From positions 1 through 38,849 of IMG/VR virus record IMGVR_UViG_3300025574_000006: a stretch of DNA of 38,849 nucleotides; one strand, given 5' to 3'. Under the pieces are notes generated by a model. That model had not been told where the DNA came from and searched no databases. It was given only the letters and a program-made list of their open reading frames with translations. Positions 2,259 through 38,827 of the stretch are shown here, piece by piece. The translations under genes were made by a program, and so were the position numbers. The stretch's first letter is position 1; the number at the start of each line of letters is the position of its first letter. Origin of the DNA: a virus.

Positions 2259-3088
2259 TTTTGGCTCCTTTTGATAATTGTTGGGAAACTAAAAGCTTTT
2301 AGTGTAAATCCAGGGTTTCTGAAATCCCACATGGCCGAGGCATGTTTAAAGAACTCGTAATGTGGTTTTAGCTCCTCGGACGTCTTAAGCACAGAAGCGA
2401 AGCCTTCGATCCCTGATTTAACGCTGCTAGAAGTGTGCAGAACCAGCCCCCCTTTCGTTTTAAGGCCCGATAACTCTTCAAAGGCCACTTTGTATGCTGA
2501 TATCTGCGCCCAGGCTGAATCGCTGATCTGGGAGCCTGTTTTCAAGTCTCCGATGTAAATCCCGGTCTCTGGGATGATAAGTTTCTTTGAACCATTGACG
2601 TCATAGGTTCCTTTTTCGATCTCTAAGGCCATGTCCAGAGTCCCGGCGATCCCCTCTTTGATTGACCAAACCGTTTTTTCAGCCTCCACGATCTTGGGAT
2701 TGACCGTATCGAAGAACTTTTGGAGCTTAACCATCGCCAACATTTCGTCTTGATTCTGAAGGATGACAAAATAAGGGTTGGATTTCTGGTAGTCCTTAAT
2801 CTGATCGTCCGTATAGGTCGGGAACTGCGGGTTATTGTAGAGAACGATCCCGCCCATCGTATAAATGAAAAGAGCGTAGTGAATCCGTTTCCCACGATCC
2901 TGGGCCTCATGGAGTTTCTTCCGGGCTAGATCCCAGCCTTGATCGGCGTACCAGCGATACAGGAAAGGTTTATCCTCGATCCCGAGTTTTGTCGTGACGG
3001 AGGCTTGTTCGAAAATCGAACCATCTTTAAATTTGATCCGGTATCCTCTCTCGTCGAACCATAGCGATGTTTTTATCTCTTCGTCCAT
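2255..3088 (-). CDS. PD-(D/E)XK (RecB/Cas4-like) exonuclease
   Basis: About 277 residues from the ATG at 3088, chosen because GGAGGATAAG precedes it; ATGs at 3100 and a longer frame to 3130 lack such a site. Nuclease motifs are visible in order: the early RGKRIH, IVEAEKTVWS, GIAGTLDMALEI (the Asp of motif II), IYIGDLKTG (the D...LKTG form of motif III) and SAWAQISAYKVAFEEL (QxxxY motif). This is the RecB/lambda-exonuclease-type core, expected to degrade or resect DNA ends for recombination. It is first in the minus-strand recombination block, immediately after the terminator at 3150-3192. No convincing promoter was found in the short gap. Confidence 0.8.
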   Translation of the reverse strand: MDEEIKTSLWFDERGYRIKFKDGSIFEQASVTTKLGIEDKPFLYRWYADQGWDLARKKLHEAQDRGKRIHYALFIYTMGGIVLYNNPQFPTYTDDQIKDYQKSNPYFVILQNQDEMLAMVKLQKFFDTVNPKIVEAEKTVWSIKEGIAGTLDMALEIEKGTYDVNGSKKLIIPETGIYIGDLKTGSQISDSAWAQISAYKVAFEELSGLKTKGGLVLHTSSSVKSGIEGFASVLKTSEELKPHYEFFKHASAMWDFRNPGFTLKAFSFPTIIKRSQK

Positions 3089-7500: not shown

Positions 7501-8374
7501 CGTTGGTAAAAGTCTGAGAAGATGTAAAAACATTCGTCCCAGAAAAGGTTTGGGAAACATTGGTATAGGCTACATTCGAAGGCAAATTCGTCGAAGGCAA
7601 AGTCCCGGTAACGTCTCCAGTTAAACTGATAAGGCCCGTTATCAGTTGTTTGTTTGAATTCGTATGAACAGGTTGCGATACAGAAAGATTGGGTAGGATC
7701 ACCCCGGCATTTATTGTAGCCACATCATTTGTACTTATTGCAATGTCTTTTATGCCGGTGGTAGCATTATAAATATCAAATTCTGGGATTTTAAGATTAG
7801 TCACATCATTCCCAACTCGCCACCAAGCCGTCCCTGAAGCTTTAAACAGCACATAAACCTGATAACTTGAGACATTCACTAAAGAGAATGTTTCAGTGCT
7901 TGTAGGCAAAAATAGGGCCTGTAGCGTTGAATTCAAAATTGAGGTCGGGCCTCTAATCGTGGCGCTTGAGACATAGAAGGTCGAGCCGGTTTGCAGGCTA
8001 TTGGTGTTCTGAATATAAAGAGTAGTCCCAGGATTTAGGGTTATATTAGAAACACCCGTGGGAGATTGGGTGCCAATAAAATTGGAATCGAAAGCAATCT
8101 TGCTCGTTGGGCTTGAAACTTGAACTCCGTTAACAAAAACGCTAAGCGCAGAAGCACCGCTTCCTCCACTGGCTGCCGTTGTTTGGGTACTGCCATCGCT
8201 GAACTTAATGGTTTTGGTTTGTAAATTCGTTACGGTTCCGCTTGAGACATAGAAGGTTGCATTGGGTTGGAGGGTATTGGTATTAAGAATGTTGAGGCCC
8301 CCTACGCCAGACCCTATTGCGGCATAACAATTAATTGAGAATAACCCAAATAAGCTTAAAAATAATCTTTTCAT
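4559..8374 (-). CDS. Giant fibre-like protein with N-terminal signal peptide
   Basis: 1271 residues, Ser/Thr/Gly/Asn-rich and beta-repetitive, as in tail fibres and adhesins. Residues 1-19 (MKRLFLSLFGLFSINCYAA) look like a secretory signal peptide with an AxA-like cleavage site, which is unexpected in a virion fibre. Degenerate repeats include TLQPNATFYVSSGTVTN (about 36-52) and SLQTGSTFYVSSATI (about 125-139), plus a FSDGSTQTT motif. The end (about 1185-1265) has the Cys pattern SCGAS...NGCTATFANP...PTCNITAG, similar to terminal domains of other phage appendages. No S74 chaperone domain is seen. Its ATG overlaps the upstream gene as ATGA, with AGAAGGA upstream. Confidence 0.8.
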   Translation of the reverse strand: MKRLFLSLFGLFSINCYAAIGSGVGGLNILNTNTLQPNATFYVSSGTVTNLQTKTIKFSDGSTQTTAASGGSGASALSVFVNGVQVSSPTSKIAFDSNFIGTQSPTGVSNITLNPGTTLYIQNTNSLQTGSTFYVSSATIRGPTSILNSTLQALFLPTSTETFSLVNVSSYQVYVLFKASGTAWWRVGNDVTNLKIPEFDIYNATTGIKDIAISTNDVATINAGVILPNLSVSQPVHTNSNKQLITGLISLTGDVTGTLPSTNLPSNVAYTNVSQTFSGTNVFTSSQTFTNGLASSNLTSGQCLQTGTNGLLTVTGFPCGAGGGGDVFKASTQTFTGSNTFAGPFMTITSSKTYFNATGNFGVNIGSTPQTTAAAYLFDVSNSTSNGVTIYDNSTKSQGGGSMLTLIATNTVNHAFNMRIFRNNAGNSNGDIRVDSPDPNFEFVDITQDGGTSSWGKFEVPSINSDHCNITGRNGANTAFENIAGFNRIGGAFGGGMILYSTCSLKFSNTVGSYVGFRPGNTFTDSGSWLWTLPLTMNNTGQVMTQISASPTFQLAFSTGGTPGQVLTNNGANGPVWANAGGASTSPGGANSNVQINSSGSFYGDSGFQYDSSVSSITLTGNLGMGSTLNITGSSPFLNLFNIGPPGGYYNLYENGKLADQWGDYGSSFQILASTTTSGTYTAQPRILLDRTSRKISLVQDSGLIPFVQFDPIGNSSFTIPVVLGTVLSASSLATDSTGKIIAGSGGGSSSLAVGTGTASNFTTNVTSPTAAISFEGAQFTSKALGTTNYIALNQSSVTLQGVFTAGSGILLTPSGTMTTISATGGGGGSTAILGSSSTVLTTSQSLSTGFTTITGSTLTFVVGTANNRAQISFTINVIDSFAGGWGDFTIILDGVNLGSGTKNGIVQYGPGSGTASGASASTVFLTAPLSAGSHTFYLQGQEDALNSASLTCSTDGCPESVLEISSTTGGGSSSSGGGSSIYPATSTASFPFGFLASTGNSTGKFVVGNSTGGRIELSATSGFPVLNMYAGNGTNDWQRAFVSSITNNDSMLEELTGSTYQIYVASNDAISAPVSRLLVSRTTPLISLVDNNGSNIVSFSNPISTFSSAISISSIAVSQINLLNQGNTRVVFMNGTQLGTSSTYTWNGTTMTATIVNPTSSFQVGGGSFTVKTNGNWNVNGSSPTLSSCGASPSVIGGGLVFTITAGSGANGCTATFANPLINTPTCNITAGTGSVINTFSYTTSNTGVVITETGLSGNIDVQCVGHDKN

Positions 8375-8841
8375 TGGAATCCTTCTAGGCTATACTTAGG
8401 GAGTCGAAGAGCTATTGCGAGCAGAATGTTGTTGGCCAAGCACAATATAACTTTACCCAACACTGCACTTTCCAGCTCAGAGTCCGGTAACTCTTCGACC
8501 GATTTACCATCACAGGACTCTGGGCTGTTTTTATTCCAGCCCACAATTTGGTCTTTAAGCAATGGGAAATTCTGGCTATGCGCGAGGTTGTCCTTCAAGA
8601 CTTCAGATGTCTCGCCCATAAGTAAAAAGTGTAACAGCTTTTGAATCGTCTGATTGACCATCAGATTGCTCAGGAAAGGTCGACGCTTTGGCTCCGCTAT
8701 ACCGGGAACATATGACCCGAACCGATCAAGAGGTTCGCTCAGTTTAGAATCGCAATGACACGTAAGAGCTAGACTTGGAAAGTATCTTGACCATCTTAGG
8801 AGCATAGACGAAGGCTTACAGCATCGTCTTAGTCTCTTCAT
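8371..8841 (-). CDS. Hypothetical protein coupled to the fibre gene
   Basis: 156 residues from the ATG at 8841. The stop overlaps the fibre start as ATGA, the best evidence that it is translated. The frame stays open further upstream to 9078, but that part is antisense to the plus-strand membrane gene at 8912-9073 and is probably not coding. The N-terminal part is basic (MKRLRRCCKPSS), followed by helices and an acidic C-terminal stretch (SVEELPDSELES), with a hydrophobic segment near the end. It lies between an ejection-type protein and the fibre. No family recognised. Confidence 0.5.
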   Translation of the reverse strand: MKRLRRCCKPSSMLLRWSRYFPSLALTCHCDSKLSEPLDRFGSYVPGIAEPKRRPFLSNLMVNQTIQKLLHFLLMGETSEVLKDNLAHSQNFPLLKDQIVGWNKNSPESCDGKSVEELPDSELESAVLGKVILCLANNILLAIALRLPKYSLEGFQ

Positions 8842-8911
8842 TTCACCACTACCCAAGAATCCCCGGTGAAACAAAGACTCTAGAGACTTAAAGAAAGTGA
8901 AAGGAGGAAGT

Positions 8912-9073
8912 ATGTTGAACATTGCTGGCGGTATAATTCTCGCAATAATTGGATTAAGTATTTTAAAAATTGTGTTCGAAGTTCTATTCGAAATAGGATT
9001 TTTAAATATCCTCAAATTCGTCGGAGTTTTGATCGCTGCTGCATTATTTTTTTCACCGTATTGGTATAAATAG
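8912..9073 (+). CDS. Plus-strand 53-residue membrane protein
   Basis: An ATG at 8912 preceded by AAAGGAGGAAGT opens a frame of 53 codons to TAG at 9071-9073. The product is MLNIAGGIILAIIGLSILKI followed by a second hydrophobic segment (FVGVLIAAALFFS) and the end PYWYK; one or two membrane helices are likely. It occupies exactly the gap between two minus-strand structural genes and is the only plus-strand gene in the late operon apart from the HNH in the intein. No promoter was convincingly located upstream. Role unknown; small phage membrane proteins include holins, antiholins, exclusion factors and toxins. Confidence 0.65.
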   Translation: MLNIAGGIILAIIGLSILKIVFEVLFEIGFLNILKFVGVLIAAALFFSPYWYK

Positions 9074-9074
9074 A

Positions 9075-10376
9075 TCATTGTTGCGATCCATTAGAAAGAC
9101 CCATCGTACCAACATTGGCAACCGGAGCGGCAATACCAAGACCTTTTAGATTCATGTTGTTCAGTGAATTCAATTTGTTCGCTGTTAATGCAGGGCCGAC
9201 ATGACGCATAAGACTCTTTCCGCCTAATAGAGCAGCCGCTTCTCCGATATTACCTTCCGTAATTGCGCCAGCCGCAAGAATGTAATCCGTTAAGCTCATC
9301 TTGTCATTCCCAACTTCACTACTAATCTTATTGTAGAGAGGATCTTGTGCGTTCATCGCCGCTGAATATCGCTGTTTATTCTGAAGGAATTCTTGGTGTG
9401 CTGCAGGATTTCCCATTTGTTGTGAGGTTCTGTCCAAAGCATTGTCCACAGTTTCACGGGCTCGCCCTGCAATCATTCGATCAATAACAGTAGCGTTTTT
9501 ATTAGATTGCCAATTGGCTGCATCCTGCAAAGTACCCTTTAATTGGTTGGCATCTTGAAAAGAAATTGGCTTATCTCCATAATCGTCAACCGTTGCCAAT
9601 GCTTTATCAATAGCATCATTTATGAATTGGTTATGTCCTTGCGTTAATATCTTTCCGGTTGAAGGTTGGCTTGGTCGAAGATCTTCAATAGCTGCTTTAA
9701 ATTCTTGCGGGAGAATAAAATTACCACTGGCCCCCATAGCTTCTAAATGATCCCCAATAGCCTTCCCCGATGTTTCGGCCAATTTTTGAGTATCAGCTGC
9801 CATTTTCCGAGCATTAGAAGACACCAGCCCTTCATTAAGTAAAGTTTGTGCTGTTTGTTGCATCTTGGCTTCTTTCATAGGGTTATTCAGAAATCGTTTA
9901 GATGCCCCGATTGCATTCAAAGTTGCGTCTTGTGCCGCTTGTCCTACCATTCCTGTCTTTCCAGCAGAAGCAGCCATATCAGCTAAGCTAGCCTCCGGCA
10001 ATAATGCCCCAGCAATAGGAGCTGCAACGCTCGCCACATCTAAAGCGGTTTTGATCGGATGCTGTTGGAACGAATCAATCGGATGCGTAACAATCTGTTT
10101 AGCTCTATCGTAAATCTGCCCTGGCATTTGAGCTAATTGCTGCGCTTGCTGTCCTATTGGTGTTTGACCCATCGGTTGACCCTGGGACAATTGTTGGCCA
10201 GTCTGATAAATGCTCATGGGGATAGTTACCGGAGACATTGCAATTCCCTTGGCCGCTTGAACTGCTCCACTTGCCAGATCCCCAATATCAGAAACGGCAT
10301 TATCAAGAATGCCGCCATTGTCTTGATATTTAGACCAAGGGCCTTGATCTTGATATTTTTCCCAGGGAGCGGGCAT
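9075..10376 (-). CDS. Internal virion (ejection) protein, Ala/Gln-rich
   Basis: 433 residues from the ATG at 10376, which overlaps the upstream stop as TAATG. The N-terminus carries a duplicated PWEKYQDQGPWSKYQD motif, seen in large internal or ejection proteins of podoviruses. A hydrophobic Ala-rich helix (about 114-130, ALDVASVAAPIAGALLPEAS) and long helices follow. Position between adaptor/tail genes and the fibre, with two other Gln-rich proteins upstream, suggests one of the three proteins ejected into the host envelope. No transglycosylase motif was seen. Confidence 0.65.
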   Translation of the reverse strand: MPAPWEKYQDQGPWSKYQDNGGILDNAVSDIGDLASGAVQAAKGIAMSPVTIPMSIYQTGQQLSQGQPMGQTPIGQQAQQLAQMPGQIYDRAKQIVTHPIDSFQQHPIKTALDVASVAAPIAGALLPEASLADMAASAGKTGMVGQAAQDATLNAIGASKRFLNNPMKEAKMQQTAQTLLNEGLVSSNARKMAADTQKLAETSGKAIGDHLEAMGASGNFILPQEFKAAIEDLRPSQPSTGKILTQGHNQFINDAIDKALATVDDYGDKPISFQDANQLKGTLQDAANWQSNKNATVIDRMIAGRARETVDNALDRTSQQMGNPAAHQEFLQNKQRYSAAMNAQDPLYNKISSEVGNDKMSLTDYILAAGAITEGNIGEAAALLGGKSLMRHVGPALTANKLNSLNNMNLKGLGIAAPVANVGTMGLSNGSQQ

Positions 10377-17323: not shown

Positions 17324-18461
17324 TTCTTACCCCCTCAAAAGCATTTACCCATTGCATGTACTGAGTATTGATATCGAAATTCTTCTCAACAAATTGGCGA
17401 GCATTTTTCCCAATCTCAAGACGTAACACTTTGTCTTGGATTAGAGTTTCAAGTCCTTTCACCCAACCATTCACATCATTGTTCTCGACGAAAATACCTT
17501 TGTTGATTTCGTCGACATCTTGAATTGAGTCATAGGGCTGGACATAAGACGTGACACAGGGAATTCCCAAGGATGAAAACTCAACCCATTTTATATTGCT
17601 CTTTGAACGGTTAAATATGGTGTCTTTCAAAGGAATAATTGCGATGTCCACATCCAAAGTCGCCAATCGATATGGATGGGCCGGAGTCTCAACCCAAGGA
17701 TGAAATTCTAATTGTCCGGGTCTAAAATCTTTTTCCATCGTAACTGGCATATAGCCCAACATTAAAATTTTAACATTGGGATATTTGTTGGCGATCTGGA
17801 TCAAAGATTCACGGACTAACTTAAGATCTTCCCAGTGAGAATGGCCGCCTTGCCAGCAGATACGAATCTCATCCGGGTTCTTCCGAAGCAAAGGCAATTT
17901 ATTCCATTGTTTTAAATCAACGCAATTTGGCAAGACCTTAACATCGTTGAATTGACGGTATACTTTTGCCAAGTGTTCCGTCGTCGTAGTAATACAATCG
18001 ACTTGCTCGCAAGATTTTTTGATGTTGTCGAGCATCTTTCGATTCTTGGAAAGGTTAAAATTAACTCCGTCTTTCCATTCGAAGATCAATTTTCCTTCAT
18101 GGACGATTTTGATCTCTTCGGTTCCATAGTCAATATAATGATTTGAGAGTGGCGAGACATTAAAAACATCATCGTCATAGTCCATGACCAACTTTGCATC
18201 TACTTTTATGCCGTCTTTGAATTCACGTATCTTTTTAATCAAGTTCTCACTAGAGACACGCTGTAAAAAGTAAATATCGCTCTGCATTGAATTCATGAAA
18301 CTATCTTCATCATGCATCATCTTGGCTAGAAGATGAGAAACCCACATCTCAGACTTTTTAATACACTTGTTTTCTGCCGCAGTATTCATCGGTATAAGTG
18401 TTCGATAATAATCACAAGCTCCGTCCGAGGCCCTAAATATGCATACTTTCATAGGATTCAT
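17295..18461 (-). CDS. GT-B glycosyltransferase (GT4-like)
   Basis: 388 residues. The N-terminal half includes CIFRASDGACDYYRTLIPM and AKLVMDYDDDVFNVSP. The C-terminal half has the GT4 signature regions: RICWQGGHSHWEDLKLV, VKILMLGYMP, the LDVDIAIIPLKDTIFNRSKS segment and KWVEFSSLGIPCVTS, in which Glu corresponds to the conserved donor-binding E of GT4 enzymes. It transfers a sugar from an activated donor to an unknown acceptor. It lies with a second glycosyltransferase between capsid and adaptor genes, coupled by ATGA, which points to modification of virion proteins or of the host surface. Codon choice and GC look like neighbours. Confidence 0.8.
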   Translation of the reverse strand: MNPMKVCIFRASDGACDYYRTLIPMNTAAENKCIKKSEMWVSHLLAKMMHDEDSFMNSMQSDIYFLQRVSSENLIKKIREFKDGIKVDAKLVMDYDDDVFNVSPLSNHYIDYGTEEIKIVHEGKLIFEWKDGVNFNLSKNRKMLDNIKKSCEQVDCITTTTEHLAKVYRQFNDVKVLPNCVDLKQWNKLPLLRKNPDEIRICWQGGHSHWEDLKLVRESLIQIANKYPNVKILMLGYMPVTMEKDFRPGQLEFHPWVETPAHPYRLATLDVDIAIIPLKDTIFNRSKSNIKWVEFSSLGIPCVTSYVQPYDSIQDVDEINKGIFVENNDVNGWVKGLETLIQDKVLRLEIGKNARQFVEKNFDINTQYMQWVNAFEGVRNVNSCKSIA

Positions 18462-21800: not shown

Positions 21801-23701
21801 TGGCCTGGAACCATGTTATTGGTTTGACTTGGCACGTTTAAAGTTTGGGCTGGCTGGGATGCTTGGCCTTGCGGTGCTCCTTGTTCTGGGGGCGGAGCCA
21901 TAGCAGGCATATCGAACTCATTCGTTTTCTTAATCCCGATCAAAGGCAGCATCTCTTTGAAAATCTTGCTGACATCGATGAAAGTGGCTTTCTGTTCAGG
22001 AAGCACACGCATCTGAACCAAAGAACCCGTAGCTTGGTTCGCAGCCGTCGCTCGATCCATCATCATCATGTATTGGTTAATCTTGGATTGTTTATTAACT
22101 GAGAAATTAACTTGTAAATCAAAATCGCCTTGAATGATTGAACGAACCGGAACTGACTTGTCCCAAATCAAAGGGCCGAAATATTTTCCTGCAATAGCCT
22201 TAATATAGTCTTCAGTTTCATAGGCTTGTTCGAGACGAAGGAGATAACGAAATACCGGCATCCATGCCGTATAGGCCAGATTTTTAATGACAAGTTCAAT
22301 TTTCTTGTTTGCATTTGTGAGTTGGTTTTGACTTTCTGTTGCAGACTCGGAGGTAGTATCTCCTCCTTGAAGTAATGGAGGCAGTCCCGTTTCGGCATAG
22401 TCATTATCCGTCCTCGCTTGTGTTTTTTGAAGAATGGCCGCCGAATTATTGCTAGGGAACATGGTCATTGCTTCATTGCCAGGCCCATCGCCAAGGACAT
22501 GGCCGCCAATTCTTTTTGTAGTTAATGCAAGCAAGTCTACGTTTGCATCTCGATTAATATAATTGGTTGGCCTTAAGTCACGGGCTACGGCTTCACGTTC
22601 TTGGTTACGTTGTGCATTGGTTTCTTTTTGAAGTGATTCGGTAATTTGAGGATAAGATTTCCCCTCTAAGCGGTGGGGTTCTGGATAGGCCTCTCCCAGA
22701 ATTATCGGAGGACGATTGTGCTCGAAAGGGGAAAAACGGTAAGGTAAATCGTTCTCGACCCATCCACGGCCAACAGTAGTTGGACGAAGCATATCGCCGA
22801 GGAGAATATAGGAACCTGATTTTAATTTCCCATCTTCATCGGGTAGAAAATCCCAGATCTCAAATACCCAGACTTCTTCCTGGTCTTGAACCTCGGTTTC
22901 GTCGTTGAAAAGTGTTTGATAGTCCTGCCGACGTTGATATTTGACCACGTCATTGATCTGATCGTCCATTGATTCAGAACCGACCTCATCAATGTTTTTA
23001 TATCCAAGAAGTCTTAATTCGCTGCGTGTCTTTTTGTAGCGATGACACATCGGATACTTAAAATAGTTCTTCCAGGTCGCACGCTTAGAAAAGAAAAGGT
23101 CTTCGGGAGGGATAGAATCGATTCTGGGCTCGAAATATTTAATCTGTTTCTGTTTGGAATCGACATAGGTCTTATAGGGCGTTCCGTCTTCAAGTTCTTC
23201 CGTTTTCTCTTTCTGCACAGTGACGGTTTCGGTTTCGACTTGAGGGTAGACCTTATAGATACAAATCATGTTGCGAACTGCATTGACTGAACCTTCATAG
23301 GCTTCTTGATACCAGTCAATCGGATGCCCGTTCAAGCGATGGTTCATGATCGTCTTCACCAAGCGGATGTGATCAGTGGGAATCTCTTTGTTGACTTTGA
23401 TATCGACTATTTCATCGGCATCGCTGAACATAGAAGCCAGAATATCCACGACAATACGCTGAGTATTAACATAGGTTTTAGGAATGAAGAGTTTAGGGAC
23501 GCCTAGAATGTCGGAATATTTACGTTCGTCGGTTTGGAATCGACCGTCGTACATATCCATATCTTTTCGCATACGTTCGTAGAAAAGTTGGTGGCCGGTC
23601 TTGGCATTGTCGTAAAGAGCGGTGCCTTGACTGAGCAAAAATCCATCGGTTACTTGCGATTTCTTGGTGATGCGAATTTCTGAGGTAGAGGAATTAAGCA
23701 A
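21797..23701 (-). CDS. Portal protein
   Basis: 634 residues. The start is TTG at 23701, overlapping the terminase stop, with GGAG eight bases upstream; no ATG occurs in frame for 40 codons. Recognisable regions are RMRKDMDMYDGRF (N-terminal helices), a long wing with PPEDLFFSKRATWKNYFKYP, ENDLPYRFSPFEHNRPPIIL followed by AYPEPHRLEGKSYPQITESL, the stem helix LQKETNAQRNQEREAVARDL, and a Gln/Pro-rich C-terminus. The dodecameric portal forms the DNA entry channel. Position after terL and before scaffold/capsid fits. Confidence 0.85.
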   Translation of the reverse strand: MLNSSTSEIRITKKSQVTDGFLLSQGTALYDNAKTGHQLFYERMRKDMDMYDGRFQTDERKYSDILGVPKLFIPKTYVNTQRIVVDILASMFSDADEIVDIKVNKEIPTDHIRLVKTIMNHRLNGHPIDWYQEAYEGSVNAVRNMICIYKVYPQVETETVTVQKEKTEELEDGTPYKTYVDSKQKQIKYFEPRIDSIPPEDLFFSKRATWKNYFKYPMCHRYKKTRSELRLLGYKNIDEVGSESMDDQINDVVKYQRRQDYQTLFNDETEVQDQEEVWVFEIWDFLPDEDGKLKSGSYILLGDMLRPTTVGRGWVENDLPYRFSPFEHNRPPIILGEAYPEPHRLEGKSYPQITESLQKETNAQRNQEREAVARDLRPTNYINRDANVDLLALTTKRIGGHVLGDGPGNEAMTMFPSNNSAAILQKTQARTDNDYAETGLPPLLQGGDTTSESATESQNQLTNANKKIELVIKNLAYTAWMPVFRYLLRLEQAYETEDYIKAIAGKYFGPLIWDKSVPVRSIIQGDFDLQVNFSVNKQSKINQYMMMMDRATAANQATGSLVQMRVLPEQKATFIDVSKIFKEMLPLIGIKKTNEFDMPAMAPPPEQGAPQGQASQPAQTLNVPSQTNNMVPGQ

Positions 23702-26297
23702 GCATCATCTCCGCATCTGGAATACCGATATCAACGGTCGCCGTTGTATGAGGACGCCAAGAGAAACGGCGTTGAAGGATGTAGCGAACACAAGCATGGT
23801 GGTCGTGGATACCTTCAGCAATTGAGTCTTTGGGGCCTTTTTTCTCTTCACCTAGTTGGGTGTCACGCTGCAAGGTCTTGAAAGTCTTGATCAAAAGTTT
23901 GTTCTCGGGACGGTTGAATATAAAGAGGCGAGGTTTACCAGTACGAGGATGGATTTTCAGTCTTTCCTTCATATTGGAAATACCCGCTGCGATACTCCCG
24001 GGGAATTTCTCGGCTTTGGTCAGGTTCGGAACGGCGTTCTTGCCACGTTTGAGCATCTGAAACACGTTTAAGTTGTCATGGATGGTCAAAGACGAGTCTG
24101 AAGACGGATCGGCTACGGCTTTAACGATTCGATGGTCTAAAGTCAGTCGTCTAAGGTCGAGTTTCATCTCTTCGACCGTCACACCTTTCTTGTAGCAGGT
24201 ATCGATATAGAAATTGTCTTCCCGGTCGGTGAAACACATCACTGCACAGGAATCTTTGACCATGTGAGGGTCGATGCCGAGAAAACCCATGTATTTCGCA
24301 TAGGGACAGCTTTCGATGTGCTGAGAACGGCCAGATTTGGCCTGACAATCGCATTCTGTGTTAAAAGGTTCGATGACATGAAGAGAATGTTGAAACAACT
24401 TGCCATAGACTAGCCCTGAAAGGCTCACAAACTCGCCCAGAAGCCGCATCTTTAGTTCTTCGTAGCTTTCCATCTCTTTTAGGATTTCACGCAGCACCTT
24501 GATGTTTGCGTGCGGATTACAAACCGAGGCGATCTGGAACCAATCGACGTTGTTGCCGTCGGTATCAGTGCCACGAGTAAACAAATCATATGTCCAACTC
24601 AAGCCTTTGGTCGGGGTCATGCAGAAGAGGACGTCAAGGCTTGACGCCGTGGTGAAACGCATCAGATTTTCTTTATAGACTTCATGGTCTGGTTCTTCGT
24701 CAAAGACGAGCATGTGCCTCGGGGGGCCTTGGAAAGTACCCAAATCTTGCTTGTTACTCATAAACTCGATGGTTCCGAGTAACTGTTTTGTAACCGGATC
24801 AATTAAGCGGAGGGTTTGTTCACCGGAGGAATAGCTTTGTTCCCAGCTTCCGCCAATGAGATGTTCTTTTGGTGCCCATTTACGGTAAGTGGGGATTAAG
24901 TTTCTTAGAACTCCGTTCTGGTAGTCCTCGCCGATGACCCGGACGTGTTGAGGGCCTTTGCGTTCTAGTCGGTGTTTGGGGTATTCGAACTTGTAGTCTT
25001 TATGGGTCGGGTCGAATACAAAGGGTAAACTGCCAGTAGCTTTAATGAGAGCTTCAATACATCCGGTTGTTGTTTTGGAATTATGCGATACTGTTTCTCC
25101 TAGGAGATAATTGTGATATAGAGGAACTTCGAAGTCGTAGTATATATTGGTTCCAATAAATGATACGCTTTCAATTGTTGTACAAGGAGGACTTAATGAA
25201 ATCAGGGCCGAAACCAGGCGCGCTTCACTTTCGATGGAAGGGTGGTATTCATAAAACAAAAACGGGTTATGTTCAAGTCTACACCCCTGGTCATCCCTAT
25301 GCACGAAAGCCCACTCCTTATGTTTGGGAGCACCGCCTTGTAATGGAGAAATCACTTGGACGATATCTCCTGCCAGTTGAAGTTGTCCACCACAAGAATG
25401 GGAATAAATCCGATAACCGTATCGAGAACCTAGAGCTTTTTCAGAGAAACTCAGATCATCTTCGACATGAATTAAGCGGTCGAGTCCCCAAATGGTCTGA
25501 AGAAGGCTATCTTCGAATGAAAGAGGCGGCGAGAAGTAAGGGCGATTTATTACGAGGGACGAAGAAACGCGTTCTTTCCGAGGAACAACTCCGCTTTTAT
25601 TTAGAAAAATGCGGGTGGATTGTTTTGGCCGTGGCTCGCCACCTTGAAACCCATCCTGAAAATGTCCTTTATTGGGTGAAACAGTATTCGATTCATTTCC
25701 ATCCGGGGAAAGCGTCACAACAGATGACCCCACTTGGAGTTCGTGAACTTTTTTCCAGCCCTCCGGCGTTAAAAGCCTATGAGCAGTCGTGCAGTCAATT
25801 TGTTTCCCGTTTGAAAACTTTACGCGATAAAGTGGCGCAACCCCTTTTTGAAAGGGAGTATTGGCTCTGGCTACTATCCTCTTACCCAGGCTCCAAGCGT
25901 ATACGAAAAACGGTTCGTGAATATCTGCAACGCGACGTTCCCCACCAAGAACTGGATCATAAATAAGGGAGTCTCCGCTAATACAGCTTTGGTTTCCTCC
26001 TGATGCGCCTCGTATAGAAGCATTTGACAGATGAACATCAATGGCCCCATGTAACTTTTGCGGGATGTCTTCTTCTTTGAGGAATTCTTTAAGGAACGCA
26101 CGTCGTTCTCCTACGATATCACCATTAACAGGGGCATAATACCAGAACGGGTTAGCTGCCTTATTACGGGCTTCCAATTCGTCTAATGCTTTTAACGACT
26201 CTTGCATCTCGGCTAAGGCTTTGGCCTTTTGCTCAGGTGTAAGAAGTCTAGGATCTTTACGTAAGATCTTGTTTGTTTCTTTACTAAGCTGGATCAA
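23694..26297 (-). CDS. terL: Terminase large subunit, interrupted in the P-loop by an intein
   Basis: 867 residues as translated, about 565 after protein splicing. The N-extein (1-104) ends GASGGNQS and the C-extein begins SKTTTG, together forming the Walker A loop GGNQSSKTT. The Walker B is HMLVFDEEP, followed by FCMTPTKG as coupling motif. The nuclease domain shows GIDPHMVKDS, VADPSSDSS and DSIAEGIHDHHA with acidic residues for metal binding. The enzyme packages DNA through the portal, whose gene follows with overlap. The start is TTG at 26297 with AAAGG upstream; the next ATG is at 26207 without a ribosome site. The intein and an antisense HNH gene are listed separately. Confidence 0.9.
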   Translation of the reverse strand: MIQLSKETNKILRKDPRLLTPEQKAKALAEMQESLKALDELEARNKAANPFWYYAPVNGDIVGERRAFLKEFLKEEDIPQKLHGAIDVHLSNASIRGASGGNQSCISGDSLIYDPVLGGERRVADIHEPFFVYAWSLGKRIVARANTPFQKGVAPLYRVKFSNGKQIDCTTAHRLLTPEGWKKVHELQVGSSVVTLSPDGNESNTVSPNKGHFQDGFQGGEPRPKQSTRIFLNKSGVVPRKERVSSSLVINRPYFSPPLSFEDSLLQTIWGLDRLIHVEDDLSFSEKALGSRYGYRIYSHSCGGQLQLAGDIVQVISPLQGGAPKHKEWAFVHRDDQGCRLEHNPFLFYEYHPSIESEARLVSALISLSPPCTTIESVSFIGTNIYYDFEVPLYHNYLLGETVSHNSKTTTGCIEALIKATGSLPFVFDPTHKDYKFEYPKHRLERKGPQHVRVIGEDYQNGVLRNLIPTYRKWAPKEHLIGGSWEQSYSSGEQTLRLIDPVTKQLLGTIEFMSNKQDLGTFQGPPRHMLVFDEEPDHEVYKENLMRFTTASSLDVLFCMTPTKGLSWTYDLFTRGTDTDGNNVDWFQIASVCNPHANIKVLREILKEMESYEELKMRLLGEFVSLSGLVYGKLFQHSLHVIEPFNTECDCQAKSGRSQHIESCPYAKYMGFLGIDPHMVKDSCAVMCFTDREDNFYIDTCYKKGVTVEEMKLDLRRLTLDHRIVKAVADPSSDSSLTIHDNLNVFQMLKRGKNAVPNLTKAEKFPGSIAAGISNMKERLKIHPRTGKPRLFIFNRPENKLLIKTFKTLQRDTQLGEEKKGPKDSIAEGIHDHHACVRYILQRRFSWRPHTTATVDIGIPDAEMMLA
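25080..25985 (-). mobile_element. Intein in terL Walker A (302 residues)
   Basis: Residues 105-406 of the precursor. Block A is CISGDSLIYD with catalytic Cys1; block B is CTTAHRLLTPEGW with the Thr-x-x-His pair, followed by VHELQVGSSVV. Near the end, block F is YYDFEVPLYHNYLLG and block G is ETVSHN with the penultimate His and terminal Asn, followed by Ser as the first C-extein residue. All residues needed for standard class 1 splicing are present. The linker between blocks B and F (about residues 195-372) shows no LAGLIDADG or in-frame HNH motif; it is the reverse reading of the plus-strand HNH gene. Confidence 0.9.
25196..25966 (+). CDS. HNH endonuclease encoded antisense within the intein
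   Basis: 256 residues from the ATG at 25196, preceded by AAGGAGG at ideal spacing; an in-frame ATG at 25160 lacks one. Residues 43-90 are an HNH domain: VWEHRLVMEKSLGRYLLP, then VEVVHHKNGNKSDNRIENLE and LFQRNSDHLRHE. Residues about 127-165 (LSEEQLRFYLEKCGWIVLAV through HPENVLYWVKQY) look like a helix-turn-helix. These domains correspond on the opposite strand to the intein linker between splicing blocks B and F. The remaining about 85 residues are antisense to blocks A and B and may be only read-through. Probable role: homing nuclease for the intein, cutting uninterrupted terL. A TATATATT sequence at 25141-25148 might be part of a promoter. Confidence 0.85.
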   Translation: MKSGPKPGALHFRWKGGIHKTKTGYVQVYTPGHPYARKPTPYVWEHRLVMEKSLGRYLLPVEVVHHKNGNKSDNRIENLELFQRNSDHLRHELSGRVPKWSEEGYLRMKEAARSKGDLLRGTKKRVLSEEQLRFYLEKCGWIVLAVARHLETHPENVLYWVKQYSIHFHPGKASQQMTPLGVRELFSSPPALKAYEQSCSQFVSRLKTLRDKVAQPLFEREYWLWLLSSYPGSKRIRKTVREYLQRDVPHQELDHK

Positions 26298-27783: not shown

Positions 27784-27974
27784 TACAGCGGCCCGTAGTA
27801 TTCTTTAACAATACCCTTATTCAATCTGCGCTCTTGCCTAAGACGCCACTTACTCAAAACTTTCCAATGCCTATGGCTAATCTCATCTAACGAATTCAGA
27901 ATATCGTCCCACACCGGATCTACTTCGCCCGGTTCGTTCTTTAACCAGGCAACAAATTTTCTAAATAGTTTCAT
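27783..27974 (-). CDS. 63-residue hypothetical protein
   Basis: Start overlaps the previous stop as ATGA. Sequence FRKFVAWLKNEPGEVDPVWD and RHWKVLSKWRLRQERRLNKG suggests an amphipathic N-terminal helix and a basic helix. No family recognised. Confidence 0.6.
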   Translation of the reverse strand: MKLFRKFVAWLKNEPGEVDPVWDDILNSLDEISHRHWKVLSKWRLRQERRLNKGIVKEYYGPL

Positions 27975-28303
27975 GCCTTTTTCTTTTTTCGCGCAAATTT
28001 TGTCTTCACCTTGCTCCGCATCAGGTTAATCATACCCCGGACTTTTCCAAAAGAGTCTCCATTCGTGAAGTAGAGAGCTTTACGATAAGCCGTTCCTCGG
28101 ATTAGATCGATACCACGAAGAGTCTTTTTGTTTTCAGCGCTAAATTCTATCGTCGATCCGTTAGGAAACGTTACCCTTTTGTTTTGAGCGTAAGATTCGG
28201 GAAGAGTGTAACTATTAGGCTTAGGGGTGGTACTCCCGACCTCACCCACCTCCCCTTCGGCAAGACCATGGTTTCGTCTAATCTTTCTTAAGCCTAGGAT
28301 CAT
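27971..28303 (-). CDS. Basic hypothetical protein
   Basis: 110 residues. The middle (KRVTFPNGSTIEFSAENKKT, LRGIDLIRGTAYRKALYFTN) looks like a small beta domain with a GxxI/L-RGT motif; its FPNGS..EFSAEN..TLRGI wording recalls terminase-like P-loop neighbours only vaguely. The C-terminus is strongly basic. The ATG overlaps a 27-residue ORF as ATGA. Confidence 0.6.
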   Translation of the reverse strand: MILGLRKIRRNHGLAEGEVGEVGSTTPKPNSYTLPESYAQNKRVTFPNGSTIEFSAENKKTLRGIDLIRGTAYRKALYFTNGDSFGKVRGMINLMRSKVKTKFARKKKKA

Positions 28304-33827: not shown

Positions 33828-33894
33828 AATCCCTCCGTTCTCATCTCGTTTAACTTCCCTATCAGTATATTATAAGTGGCAAGAAACACAAGGT
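33828..33894 (-). promoter_or_regulatory. Short gap with TATAATATACT, possible promoter
   Basis: On the minus strand TATAATATACT (about 33875-33865) resembles two overlapping -10 elements; the best -35 is TTGTGT at 16-base spacing. Weak, but it lies in one of the few gaps of the early array. Confidence 0.25.
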
Positions 33895-34074
33895 CTAAAT
33901 TATGATTGTTTCTTCCGTCAAAACATAGGTGTTTTCAACGCCTTTAATCAACTCGTTCTTCTTTCCCTGGAAGTCCGCTCTATGCTTGAGATTTAAGAGC
34001 ATTTCATATTCTTCCGCATGAGCTGTAAAATGCCTTAATTTCTTTCCGGGCTCTTGGCTTTTTGTCTCTCTCAT
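33895..34074 (-). CDS. 59-residue hypothetical protein
   Basis: GGAGGGACGATC precedes the ATG at 34074. MRETKSQEPGKKLRHFTAHA, then EEYEMLLNLKHRADFQGKKN and a beta-rich end (NTYVLTEETIII). No family recognised; the strong ribosome site supports translation. Confidence 0.6.
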   Translation of the reverse strand: MRETKSQEPGKKLRHFTAHAEEYEMLLNLKHRADFQGKKNELIKGVENTYVLTEETIII

Positions 34075-35617: not shown

Positions 35618-36030
35618 TTTTCCACCTCCGTCGCTACCGAATACTTTCTTTTAAATTAATTGCCGTGGCCTTGTTCTCAAGAGCACCGAAGCCGACCGTA
35701 TCGGGTTGCATTTATCACGCCATCTCGTGAACCGTATTTGGCCGCACAGCAAAATCTTCGCAGTGTCCAGGTCGCTCGGTTACTATTTGCATCACCGGGT
35801 ATGAGCCGATTAGCCTCTTCATCCGCCCTCGATGCACTGCAAAATCTTTCTTTTAAATCTGGGAACCGTTACATTTATTACACACGAACGGTTCTAGAAA
35901 GCGTGGCATCTGACTCGCGCCAGAACTCTTGCAATTAATTGCCAGTAGGTAGATTTACCACAGGTTAACTCTGTATCTACCCTCGACCTATTCAGGCCAT
36001 TTCTGGCTACTGGCAAATTGTTGTGGCTGG
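35618..36030. other. Non-coding, repeat-rich interval; candidate origin
   Basis: No convincing gene in either strand. It contains CTTTCTTTTAAAT twice (35644-35656, 35846-35858), AATTAATTGCC twice (35654-35664, 35933-35943), and GCACNGCAAAATCTT twice (35744-35758, 35834-35848). Hairpins lie at 35715-35730 and 35863-35894 (GAACCGTT/AACGGTTC), and a larger one at 35939-36016. The AT-rich direct repeats next to a replication-organiser gene suggest iterons of an origin; a regulatory leader RNA is the alternative. Confidence 0.4.
35939..36016 (-). ncRNA. Large branched hairpin, possible structured RNA
   Basis: TTGCCAGTAG (35939-35948) pairs perfectly with CTACTGGCAA (36007-36016). Inside, GTAGAT (35949-35954) pairs with ATCTAC (35975-35980), enclosing ACAG/CTGT. 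The outer and inner stems abut, giving an extended, branched structure. No U-tract follows on either strand, so it is not a simple terminator. Confidence 0.4.
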
Positions 36031-36273: not shown

Positions 36274-36564
36274 TCACTGACCTTCATTTTGGCTTGCTGG
36301 TTCAATATCATCTATCCCGTTTCCGTCTTCATCTTCCCAATCAAGCCATTCTCCATCGTTAAAAACTGATAACCCGCCAGCATTCGAGAAATCCGGCTTA
36401 ATATTATTCTCTAGTTGCCAAATATCGTAATCCGCTAAAACACAGAGAATCTTTTTTGCTTCTGAAATATTCTCAACTGGAACAAAGAAAGATTTCCCAG
36501 GTATTTGGGGTATCCACCAGATTCTTAAGCTGCCATTCTTTGCTTTTTTATCAATCGTAATCAT
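36274..36564 (-). CDS. Acidic hypothetical protein
   Basis: 96 residues with AAAGGAGAAGG ahead of the ATG. N-terminal beta part (GSLRIWWIPQIPGKSFFVPV), acidic end (WLDWEDEDGNGIDDIE). An 11-codon ORF (MSKQGNERRRI) overlaps its start as ATGA and could be a leader peptide. No family recognised. Confidence 0.6.
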   Translation of the reverse strand: MITIDKKAKNGSLRIWWIPQIPGKSFFVPVENISEAKKILCVLADYDIWQLENNIKPDFSNAGGLSVFNDGEWLDWEDEDGNGIDDIEPASQNEGQ

Positions 36565-37072
36565 ATCCTTCTCCTTTCGTTACCTTGTTTACTCATGCTT
36601 CTACACTTAAATATAACTTCTCTCTGGGCAGTCTCTAAATAACTGTTGCCTTAAATGCCTCATCTAATCCCGGCTTTACGGGACAAATTGCAATGGTAGT
36701 CGAATCAAAAGCCTTAAGGGGCTCACCAACCAAGGACAGCGTTTACCGTGCTTTTAGACAAAAAAATAACCCAAGTCTCGGTACATCCTGCGAGGGACGT
36801 GCGATGAGACTTGGGCTTTACCAAACAGTTTCCTGTTGGAAAAATTCATGGTCGCACATTCCCTCGCAGATGATTCAATTTACCTTTACTCGTTTTCTAT
36901 TTCAAGTACTATTTTAAATTATTCCCGTTGCCGTTATTCTCGGCGTCTGCCCCGGCCGGGACATAACGGATAGCATCCGAACGGAAAAGCTTTTGTGAAG
37001 GAAGAGAATTTAACTCTTCTCGTTTAGAATGACCTCCATCGGTTCATTTTATCTGGTTCGCCCAAAACGCCA
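36565..37072. other. 500-base intergenic region with several RNA-like hairpins
   Basis: No gene accepted. Besides the terminator complex at 36755-36869, there is a small hairpin TCCCG/CGGGA at 36668-36683, a long-range CCGTTAT/ATAACGG pairing (36931-36937 with 36963-36969), and GAAGAG/CTCTTC near 37005-37021. The plus-strand frame at 36693-36917 runs through the stems and looks non-coding. An untranslated leader or a stand-alone RNA between two minus-strand transcription units is likely. Confidence 0.5.
36755..36869 (-). ncRNA. Structured RNA ending in intrinsic terminator with interlocking stem
   Basis: Read on the minus strand: segment A (36869-36852), hairpin C (36839-36821, CCAACAG/CTGTTTGG with one bulge), B (CCCAAGTCTC, 36815-36806), A' (36804-36788), B' (GAGACTTGGG, 36779-36770), then TTATTTTTTT. 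B/B' is a perfect 10-bp terminator stem. A pairs with A' over 10 plus 6 bp (CTGCGAGGGA with TCCCTCGCAG; GTGCGA with TCGCAC), separated by a 1x2 internal loop. A' lies in the loop of B/B', so the helices interlock as a pseudoknot or compete. This looks like an attenuator or a small RNA. Confidence 0.7.
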
Positions 37073-38013: not shown

Positions 38014-38190
38014 CTAAATCGAACCCTTCGAGTTCTCTTTCTTCGCAAATATATCTAGTGTTTTCATGTGGTAATACCATCTCTGTTTTGTTTTCGTGCA
38101 TGTAGCGCAGCGGCGTTTCCCTTTTGATGTGTAGGTGTTGTTCTTGAACGGATGACCTCGACGGCATTTAAGTGAAGGCTTATGACTCAC
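38014..38190 (-). CDS. 58-residue CxxGH-type zinc protein
   Basis: A GTG at 38190 overlaps the stop of the Gly-Tyr repeat gene as GTGA and opens a frame MSHKPSLKCRRGHPFKNNTY then TSKGKRRCATCTKTKQRWYY. The C-x3-G-H-P...N-T-Y...R-x-C-x-x-C pattern matches the zinc module seen at the N-terminus of many phage HNH proteins; here it stands alone. The reading frame would be missed if only ATG starts were used. Confidence 0.65.
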   Translation of the reverse strand: MSHKPSLKCRRGHPFKNNTYTSKGKRRCATCTKTKQRWYYHMKTLDIFAKKENSKGSI

Positions 38191-38567
38191 TTGCCGTAGC
38201 CGTCGCCGTAGCCGTAGCCGGAGCCGGAGCCGGAGCCGTAGCCGTAGCCGTAGCCGTAGCCGTAGCCGGCGCGGTAGCCGTCGCCGTCGCCGGCGCCGTA
38301 GCCGTAGCCGTCGCCGGCGCCGTAGCCGTAGCCGTCGCCGTCGCCGGCGCAGTAGCCGTCGCCGGCGCCGTAGCCGGCGCAGTAGCCGTAGCCGTAGCCG
38401 TCGGCATTCGCGGCGGCCAGCGCGTTAGGATAAAGGTCCGCCTCCTCGACCGTACCGGCAATCCGCAGGGCGTGCGACCGCACGAATCTCAAGACTCCGT
38501 CCAGGCACGCGCCAGCGTCGAGCGCATCGCAGACCGTGACGTTGCCATTGCAAAACGGCCACTCCAT
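38187..38567 (-). CDS. Gly-Tyr repeat protein (right-end copy)
   Basis: 126 residues from the ATG at 38567, which overlaps the DUF6948 stop as TAATG with GGGAGG six bases ahead. Residues 1-51 are a normal domain (MEWPFCNGNVTVCDALDAGA, CLDGVLRFVRSHALRIAG); the rest is (Gly-X)n. X includes Tyr, Asp, Ala and Cys up to about 38268, but Tyr, Ser and Asp afterwards. That change of style, and the jump in GC, suggest the ORF may be joined from two sources. Function unknown. Confidence 0.6.
   Translation of the reverse strand: MEWPFCNGNVTVCDALDAGACLDGVLRFVRSHALRIAGTVEEADLYPNALAAANADGYGYGYCAGYGAGDGYCAGDGDGYGYGAGDGYGYGAGDGDGYRAGYGYGYGYGYGSGSGSGYGYGDGYGK
38190..38400. repeat. GC-rich hexamer repeat, right end
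   Basis: Repeats of GCCGTA, GCCGTC, GCCGGA and GCCGGC encode the Gly-X tract. From 38190 to about 38265 the units are as in the left-end tract; from about 38268 to 38400 GCCGGC units dominate. Confidence 0.9.
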
Positions 38568-38827
38568 TACGCCGCCTCCCATTTCGCGACGGCCGCCGCC
38601 GTCACCTCGAAGACGGCGGTCACCTTCCGGACCTCGACGTCCGCGCGGGCGCTGATCCGACTCGTTTTCGTCGGGCCAGCCTCGGCCAGTTCCAGCACCC
38701 CGCGCGTCGTGCCGAAATAGATGGCCATCCGCGCGCTAGTGAGCGCGATGCGGTCGCCTCCGGTGTCGTCCGCGTAGCCAAAAAATACGCCGCGGTACTC
38801 CGTGCAGACAATTACGGGTCGCGCCAT
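38567..38827 (-). CDS. DUF6948-family phage protein (copy B)
   Basis: 86 residues with CAAGGAGGAGCGA ahead of the ATG. MARPVIVCTEYRGVFFGYAD, ALTSARMAIYFGTTRGVLEL and AEAGPTKTSRISARADVEVR match the DUF6948 layout of copy A (GVFAGY, RRLWYWSGAASL, LATEGTK), and both end in a WEA motif. The gene is far more GC-rich than the rest of the window. Confidence 0.75.
   Translation of the reverse strand: MARPVIVCTEYRGVFFGYADDTGGDRIALTSARMAIYFGTTRGVLELAEAGPTKTSRISARADVEVRKVTAVFEVTAAAVAKWEAA

Follow-up and report, generated by a model that had tools for sequence, protein, structure and literature searches.

The window, an IMG/VR virus record of 38849 bases, carries on its minus strand an element (W1, 36869-36760) whose first bases are complementary to the loop of the terminator that closes it. 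W1 is the element singled out in a preliminary description, and it lies on the same strand as nearly all nearby genes. The arms, the U-run and an improbable pairing are present in the DNA, as are a paralogue in the window (W2) and a homologue in a related phage (G10a), and the pairing is kept between these last two. We tentatively favour, at somewhat less than even chances, the reading that W1 is an independently promoted, self-terminating, pseudoknotted phage regulatory small RNA (sRNA) acting in trans. Its gene would be short and noncoding and would run from about 36870 to the U7 tract at 36760. The 5' end of the RNA (arm A) would pair with the loop of its own terminator hairpin (arm A'), giving a pseudoknot with both ends buried in helices. 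The resulting stable RNA would work in trans, with the motif in the third loop (GATTTACCATC in the clear homologues, GATGTACC in W1) serving as an exposed contact for an RNA or protein partner. We infer that the pseudoknot forms in the cell, that the RNA is stable and that it acts in trans. Catalogues of structured noncoding RNAs are poor for uncultivated phages, and RNAs of the W1 type are recognisable by anatomy, not by sequence; one phage has two of them and a relative has another.

Anatomy and chance expectation of W1

In transcribed order, W1 consists of A, a small hairpin, B, one base, A', the eight-base connector, B', UUA and U7 (Table 1). The terminator stem B:B' comprises 10 Watson-Crick pairs, or 12 when the flanking G-U and A-U pairs are counted, and encloses a loop of 26 nt. 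Its G+C-rich stem of 10-12 bp, followed by UUAUUUUUUU, is that of an intrinsic (Rho-independent) terminator; because the loop is unusually long, W1 is absent from a consensus scan that allowed loops of 3-8. The A:A' helix has segments of 10 bp and 6 bp separated by a 2x1 internal loop. The preliminary description had listed a 10-bp terminator stem with U7, a 17-base loop segment complementary (10+6 bp) to a sequence transcribed before it and a small hairpin between the elements; all three are found on the minus strand, the hairpin at 36839-36821, and a hairpin at this position is also present in W2 and G10a. The minimum free energy of the W1 minus strand is -44.9 kcal/mol (z -3.6). The opposite plus strand also folds well (z -4.5), as expected of any inverted repeat; the U7 is found on the minus strand only.

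Table 1. Features of W1, its surroundings and related elements. Numbers refer to the window unless a contig is named.
Feature	Location	Strand	Sequence	Basis or remark
Promoter-like site, sigma-70-like	36877-36905	-	TTGAAA-17-TAAATT	weak consensus match, 9/12
W1 arm A, putative RNA 5' end	36852-36869	-	CTGCGAGGGAATGTGCGA	sequence
W1 small hairpin, loop 1	36821-36839	-	CCAACAGGAAACTGTTTGG	sequence, folding
W1 arm B, terminator 5' side	36806-36815	-	CCCAAGTCTC	Watson-Crick core of 10 pairs
W1 arm B extended by A-U and G-U	36806-36817	-	AGCCCAAGTCTC	12 pairs
W1 arm A' in terminator loop, complementary to A	36788-36804	-	TCGCACGTCCCTCGCAG	17 nt
W1 connector (loop 3), 8 nt	36780-36787	-	GATGTACC	related to GATTTACC(ATC) of W2/G10a
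W1 arm B', terminator 3' side	36770-36779	-	GAGACTTGGG	10-pair core
W1 arm B' with flanking pairs	36768-36779	-	GAGACTTGGGTT	12 pairs
W1 U7 tract, putative transcript end	36760-36766	-		sequence
Weak promoter-like site before P22 gene 17 homologue	36639-36610	-		
P22 gene 17 superinfection exclusion homologue (PF17420)	36274-36564	-		
W2, second copy in window	8368-8532	+		anatomy search, homologous to G10a
W2 promoter-like site	8368-8396	+	TTTTCA-17-TATACT	sequence
W2 arm A	8403-8411	+	GTCGAAGAG	
W2 hairpin	8421-8466	+		
W2 arm B	8474-8485	+		
W2 arm A'	8491-8499	+	CTCTTCGAC	
W2 loop 3	8500-8514	+	contains GATTTACCATC	
W2 arm B'	8515-8526	+		
W2 T-run	8528-8532	+		
G10a	G010 reverse complement 33872-34047 = L022 about 5337-5162	- (L022)		anatomy search
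G7	G007/G008, at G007 27946-28102 (C1)			anatomy search
G10b	G010 reverse complement 2330-2505			anatomy search, within shuffle range
L15	L015 reverse complement 17840-18000	-		intergenic; promoter, arms, T-run

The earlier claim that both helices are too long to arise by chance is borne out by shuffled and by unrelated real DNA, one repeat array excepted. An exact-helix search at (10 bp, 10 bp) or (8, 9) gave no comparable match in 25 shuffles, each as long as the window. The combined helix score of W1 is -60.3, whereas 0.78 Mb of shuffled sequence gave nothing better than -51.0; with a promoter required before A, W1 reaches -64.3 and the shuffles (0.93 Mb) no better than -44.3. In real DNA of unrelated viruses and genomes (2.46 Mb), the W1 score was exceeded only by a repeat array in a spirochaete contig, outside which just one match passes -45.5.

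The promoter-like site and the terminator bracket the element. The -10 box ends 7 nt before arm A, so that A would be the 5' end of an RNA of about 110 nt; sites of this quality (9/12) are expected by chance at about 20 per 10.8 kb, and transcription of W1 from here is inferred from the sequence. At the matching place before its own arm A, G10a has a near-perfect promoter, TTGACA-18-TATAAT; as the anatomy search required a promoter before A, only promoter strength and position are informative.

W1 could also be an ordinary terminator, for instance a strong 3' end of the upstream operon, whose upstream complementarity merely protects or insulates it and regulates nothing. It is indeed a good intrinsic terminator in an intergenic position, and phages carry many such terminators. 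We nevertheless regard this reading as quite unlikely: an ordinary terminator has no need of a further, conserved pairing with the start of the transcript, A is preceded by a promoter-like site, and W2 and G10a have kept the same third-loop motif.

Relatives and family members

A terminase search of IMG/VR yielded ten contigs of the window's lineage and one distant match, and a terminase search with alignment in IMG/VR returned no further relatives. Aligned against GTDB genomes, the terminase has no match there. The large terminase itself (23694-26297, minus strand) appears to contain an intein of about 300 aa, with a match to Intein_splicing (PF14890, E 2.2e-8) that falls slightly short of the curated cut-off; the terminases of related phages are without one.

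Long related contigs were searched for this layout, from promoter through A, B, A' and B' to the T-run. Scores better than in any shuffle were obtained at five separate places, namely W1, W2, G10a, G7 and L15; a sixth, G10b, scores inside the shuffle range. W2 and G10a are clearly homologous, with a local alignment score of 48 against 17.9 +/- 2.9 (0/1000 shuffles). The terminase of the phage carrying G10a is only about 52% identical to that of the window's virus. W2 and G10a have the exact 11-nt third-loop motif in common, together with AGCTC...GTCC in B and GCARAATGT ahead of the hairpin. Both pair, even with different A arms (GTCGAAGAG in W2, GTTCAAGG in G10a) and different A' arms (CTCTTCGAC and CCTTGAAC). 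The compensatory changes that the preliminary description had proposed to look for are thus seen in W2 and G10a, which keep both helices through changed pairs. Across the three cores of W1, W2 and G10a, 11/21 pairs show two-sided changes and 98.4% of cells are paired; as the arms were picked for complementarity, only the independent homology of W2 and G10a makes such pair changes evidence of covariation.

W1 itself is only marginally similar, its global score being reached by 4/1000 shuffles against W2 and by 29/1000 against G10a. When the window and relatives were scanned for the motif with a terminator stem, W2, G10a and W1 ranked at the top (-28.5, -24.5 and -23.3; next -19.1). W1 thus appears to be a weaker third member beside two clear homologues. 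G7 and G10b form a related pair (global score 81.5 against 50.9 +/- 6.6, 1/1000) and have no clear kinship with this group. L15 was first taken as a chance match and was revised since its minus strand has promoter, arms and T-run; its membership is tentative, as it is without the third-loop motif and has no sequence kinship to W2 and G10a. A 14-nt DNA match in G007/G008 was set aside as chance. W1 and its look-alikes in the window and in a distant relative point to a new, small family of putative regulatory RNAs of viruses.

Wider searches added no member. The exact B-loop-B' pattern was not found in IMG/VR. The third-loop motif with a T-run gave 109 stretches there, and among the 80 checked for a terminator stem the anatomy occurred only in G010, as it did for the motif with the B' pattern in IMG/VR and GTDB genomes. 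Taking neighbouring genes as a route to relatives, we found five GP17-like loci, none of which shows a trace of the element on its upstream side; the 61-aa gene led to no relatives. Similar DNA in annotated phages and plasmids amounted to chance matches or none.

The members also bear on whether a translated leader peptide controls the structure, which we regard as highly improbable. Frames run in W1 from an ATG inside A (13 codons) and from about 36848 (31 codons, through the terminator), and open frames also cross the terminators of W2, G7 and L15. Short open frames are, however, expected by chance, the members share no peptide sequence, and G10a has an ATG followed immediately by TGA at the matching place.

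Helix coexistence and genomic context

Whether the two helices exclude each other is central to a second interpretation, a cis-acting leader attenuator, in which A would pair with A' before B' emerges and so hinder the terminator stem. A factor, ribosome or RNA holding A would then let the terminator form and switch off downstream early genes. This is the main rival of the sRNA reading because a gene adjoins the terminator in G010, and we consider it possible, if on the doubtful side. In its favour, the A:A' fold of W1 is slightly better than the terminator fold (-41.1 vs -36.9) and is the predicted nascent fold, forming before B' is transcribed. Against it, the terminator fold clearly wins in W2 (-40.9 vs -29.9) and in G10a (-37.5 vs -30.9). 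The best predicted fold of these two is the terminator with a short upper stem formed from the loop-3 motif and with A largely free; A' lies in or around the apical loop and makes up nearly the whole 9-nt loop in G10a.

The terminator and A:A' use distinct bases, so that any exclusion is steric only: borderline in W1 and absent in W2 and G10a. In the latter two, a pairing of 8-9 bp between 5' end and loop can form atop the terminator, and both helices can coexist because the connectors (loop 3) are 15-16 nt long. In W1, a rough ideal A-form model requires a span of about 59-60 A for 17 stacked positions on the shallow-groove side, and nine linkages reach about 54-60 A; with the distal 10 bp alone, about 42-46 A suffices. 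A full H-type pseudoknot geometry, which W2 and G10a fit, would thus need partial melting or full extension of the 8-nt loop in W1. The earlier claim that eight bases are too few to span a 16-bp helix is therefore borderline under this model: the connector barely spans the full helix and is near its limit, and mutual exclusion in W1 is possible on modelling grounds, not required. In L15, loop 3 is 0 nt, so the full helices exclude each other, as an attenuator would have it.

The surroundings of the elements speak to both readings. The next gene after W1 lies 195 nt downstream and encodes a 96-aa P22 gene 17 homologue (PF17420, E 9.7e-21); it may have a weak promoter of its own. This homologue sits in a phage whose terminase is unlike that of P22. 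W2 ends about 370 nt before the next likely gene, so that neither element is a tight leader, and the two downstream genes are unrelated. W2 is opposite a 235-aa minus-strand ORF (8371-9078) that has an ATGA overlap at either end; its codon usage resembles that of noncoding sequence (-0.015 per codon vs 0.045-0.31 in 17 training genes). Near W2, a plus-strand ORF at 8912-9073 encodes a hydrophobic protein of 53 aa, has a ribosome-binding site (RBS) and is without relatives in phage records. W2 therefore appears to be part of a small plus-strand island, and the region 8371-9078 is possibly a small inserted plus-strand unit.

In G010, G10a follows a holin-like gene (assigned by sequence reading) and that gene's terminator, and its own terminator is adjoined by a 106-aa zinc-finger-like gene with an RBS, with no room for a promoter between. 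G7 and G10b are leaders that begin with a promoter, have long-loop terminators and stop immediately before replication genes, a role read from the gene sequences, and are candidate attenuators of these genes; the G10b score within the shuffle range weighs against using it as support. Of the two labels in the preliminary description, "pseudoknotted RNA" is thus supported by two homologues that keep both pairings with different sequences and longer connectors. "Attenuator" has evidence on both sides: the adjoining G010 gene and the early A:A' pairing of W1 fit it, and the coexisting pairings of W2 and G10a and the 195-nt gap after W1 do not.

We favour the sRNA reading because the helices coexist in the two best members, because the next genes in the window are unrelated and distant, and because loop 3 is the best conserved part. 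The weak W1 promoter, the marginal similarity of W1, the gene directly after the terminator in G010 and the tiny family count against it. So does the search for antisense targets of the loop-3 motif at phage translation starts, where no site beat those of shuffled motifs. A bolder proposal, which we think unlikely, is that such elements form a new class of phage control: a transcript's first bases would zip into a terminator loop about 100 nt later, and the fate of the 5' end (free, protein-bound or ribosome-covered) would set whether polymerase stops. One phage lineage would use this device at several of its promoters, those of replication genes among them.

Two further stretches of the window are repetitive. 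The 413-nt intergenic stretch at 35618-36030 has nested inverted repeats (TTGCCAGTAG / CTACTGGCAA and GGTAGAT / ATCTACC) and is possibly another structured RNA, with a fold that is not significant (z -1.3). At 38187-38582 (minus strand), GTAGCC/GTCGCC repeats make a low-complexity repeat gene (GYG/DGYG); the related contig L015 ends in a similar GGGTCC/GGGTAC repeat.

Comparison with known RNA systems

As the preliminary description had proposed, the window was searched with Rfam covariance models. No family matches at its gathering score, and at permissive thresholds the best sub-threshold matches remain far below it. ARAGORN reported no tRNA or tmRNA. We place the W1 type among putative pseudoknotted, terminator-ended RNAs, outside any named family. 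In the open-access literature searched, we found no description of such an element; nearest in kind are RydC and the HK022 put RNA.

Attenuators and transcriptional pseudoknot riboswitches such as class I preQ1 switch through overlapping, mutually exclusive helices. As in W1, a segment further upstream pairs within a terminator hairpin or close to it; in the W1 type, by contrast, the two helices are built from different bases, and in two of three members they can form together. The HK022 put RNA is a phage RNA element of early transcription that acts through its structure, as W1 may do (PMC9378689). Compared by description, put suppresses pausing and termination, whereas the W1 structure ends in a terminator.

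RydC of Escherichia coli and Salmonella is folded as a pseudoknot whose disruption destabilises the RNA and allows a plain 5' stem-loop and terminator hairpin to form (PMC4337610). As an sRNA, W1 would share with RydC its short length and pseudoknot fold. RydC, which is enterobacterial and Hfq-dependent, exposes its 5' end as a seed, whereas the 5' end of W1 is a paired arm; pairing of the W1 type extends over 8-16 bp, and no Rfam model matches it. What can be tested is the proposed contact between the start of the transcript and the loop of its own terminator. An effect of A on termination would make the element a simple regulatory device; without such an effect, it would be a compact, stable sRNA scaffold comparable to RydC.
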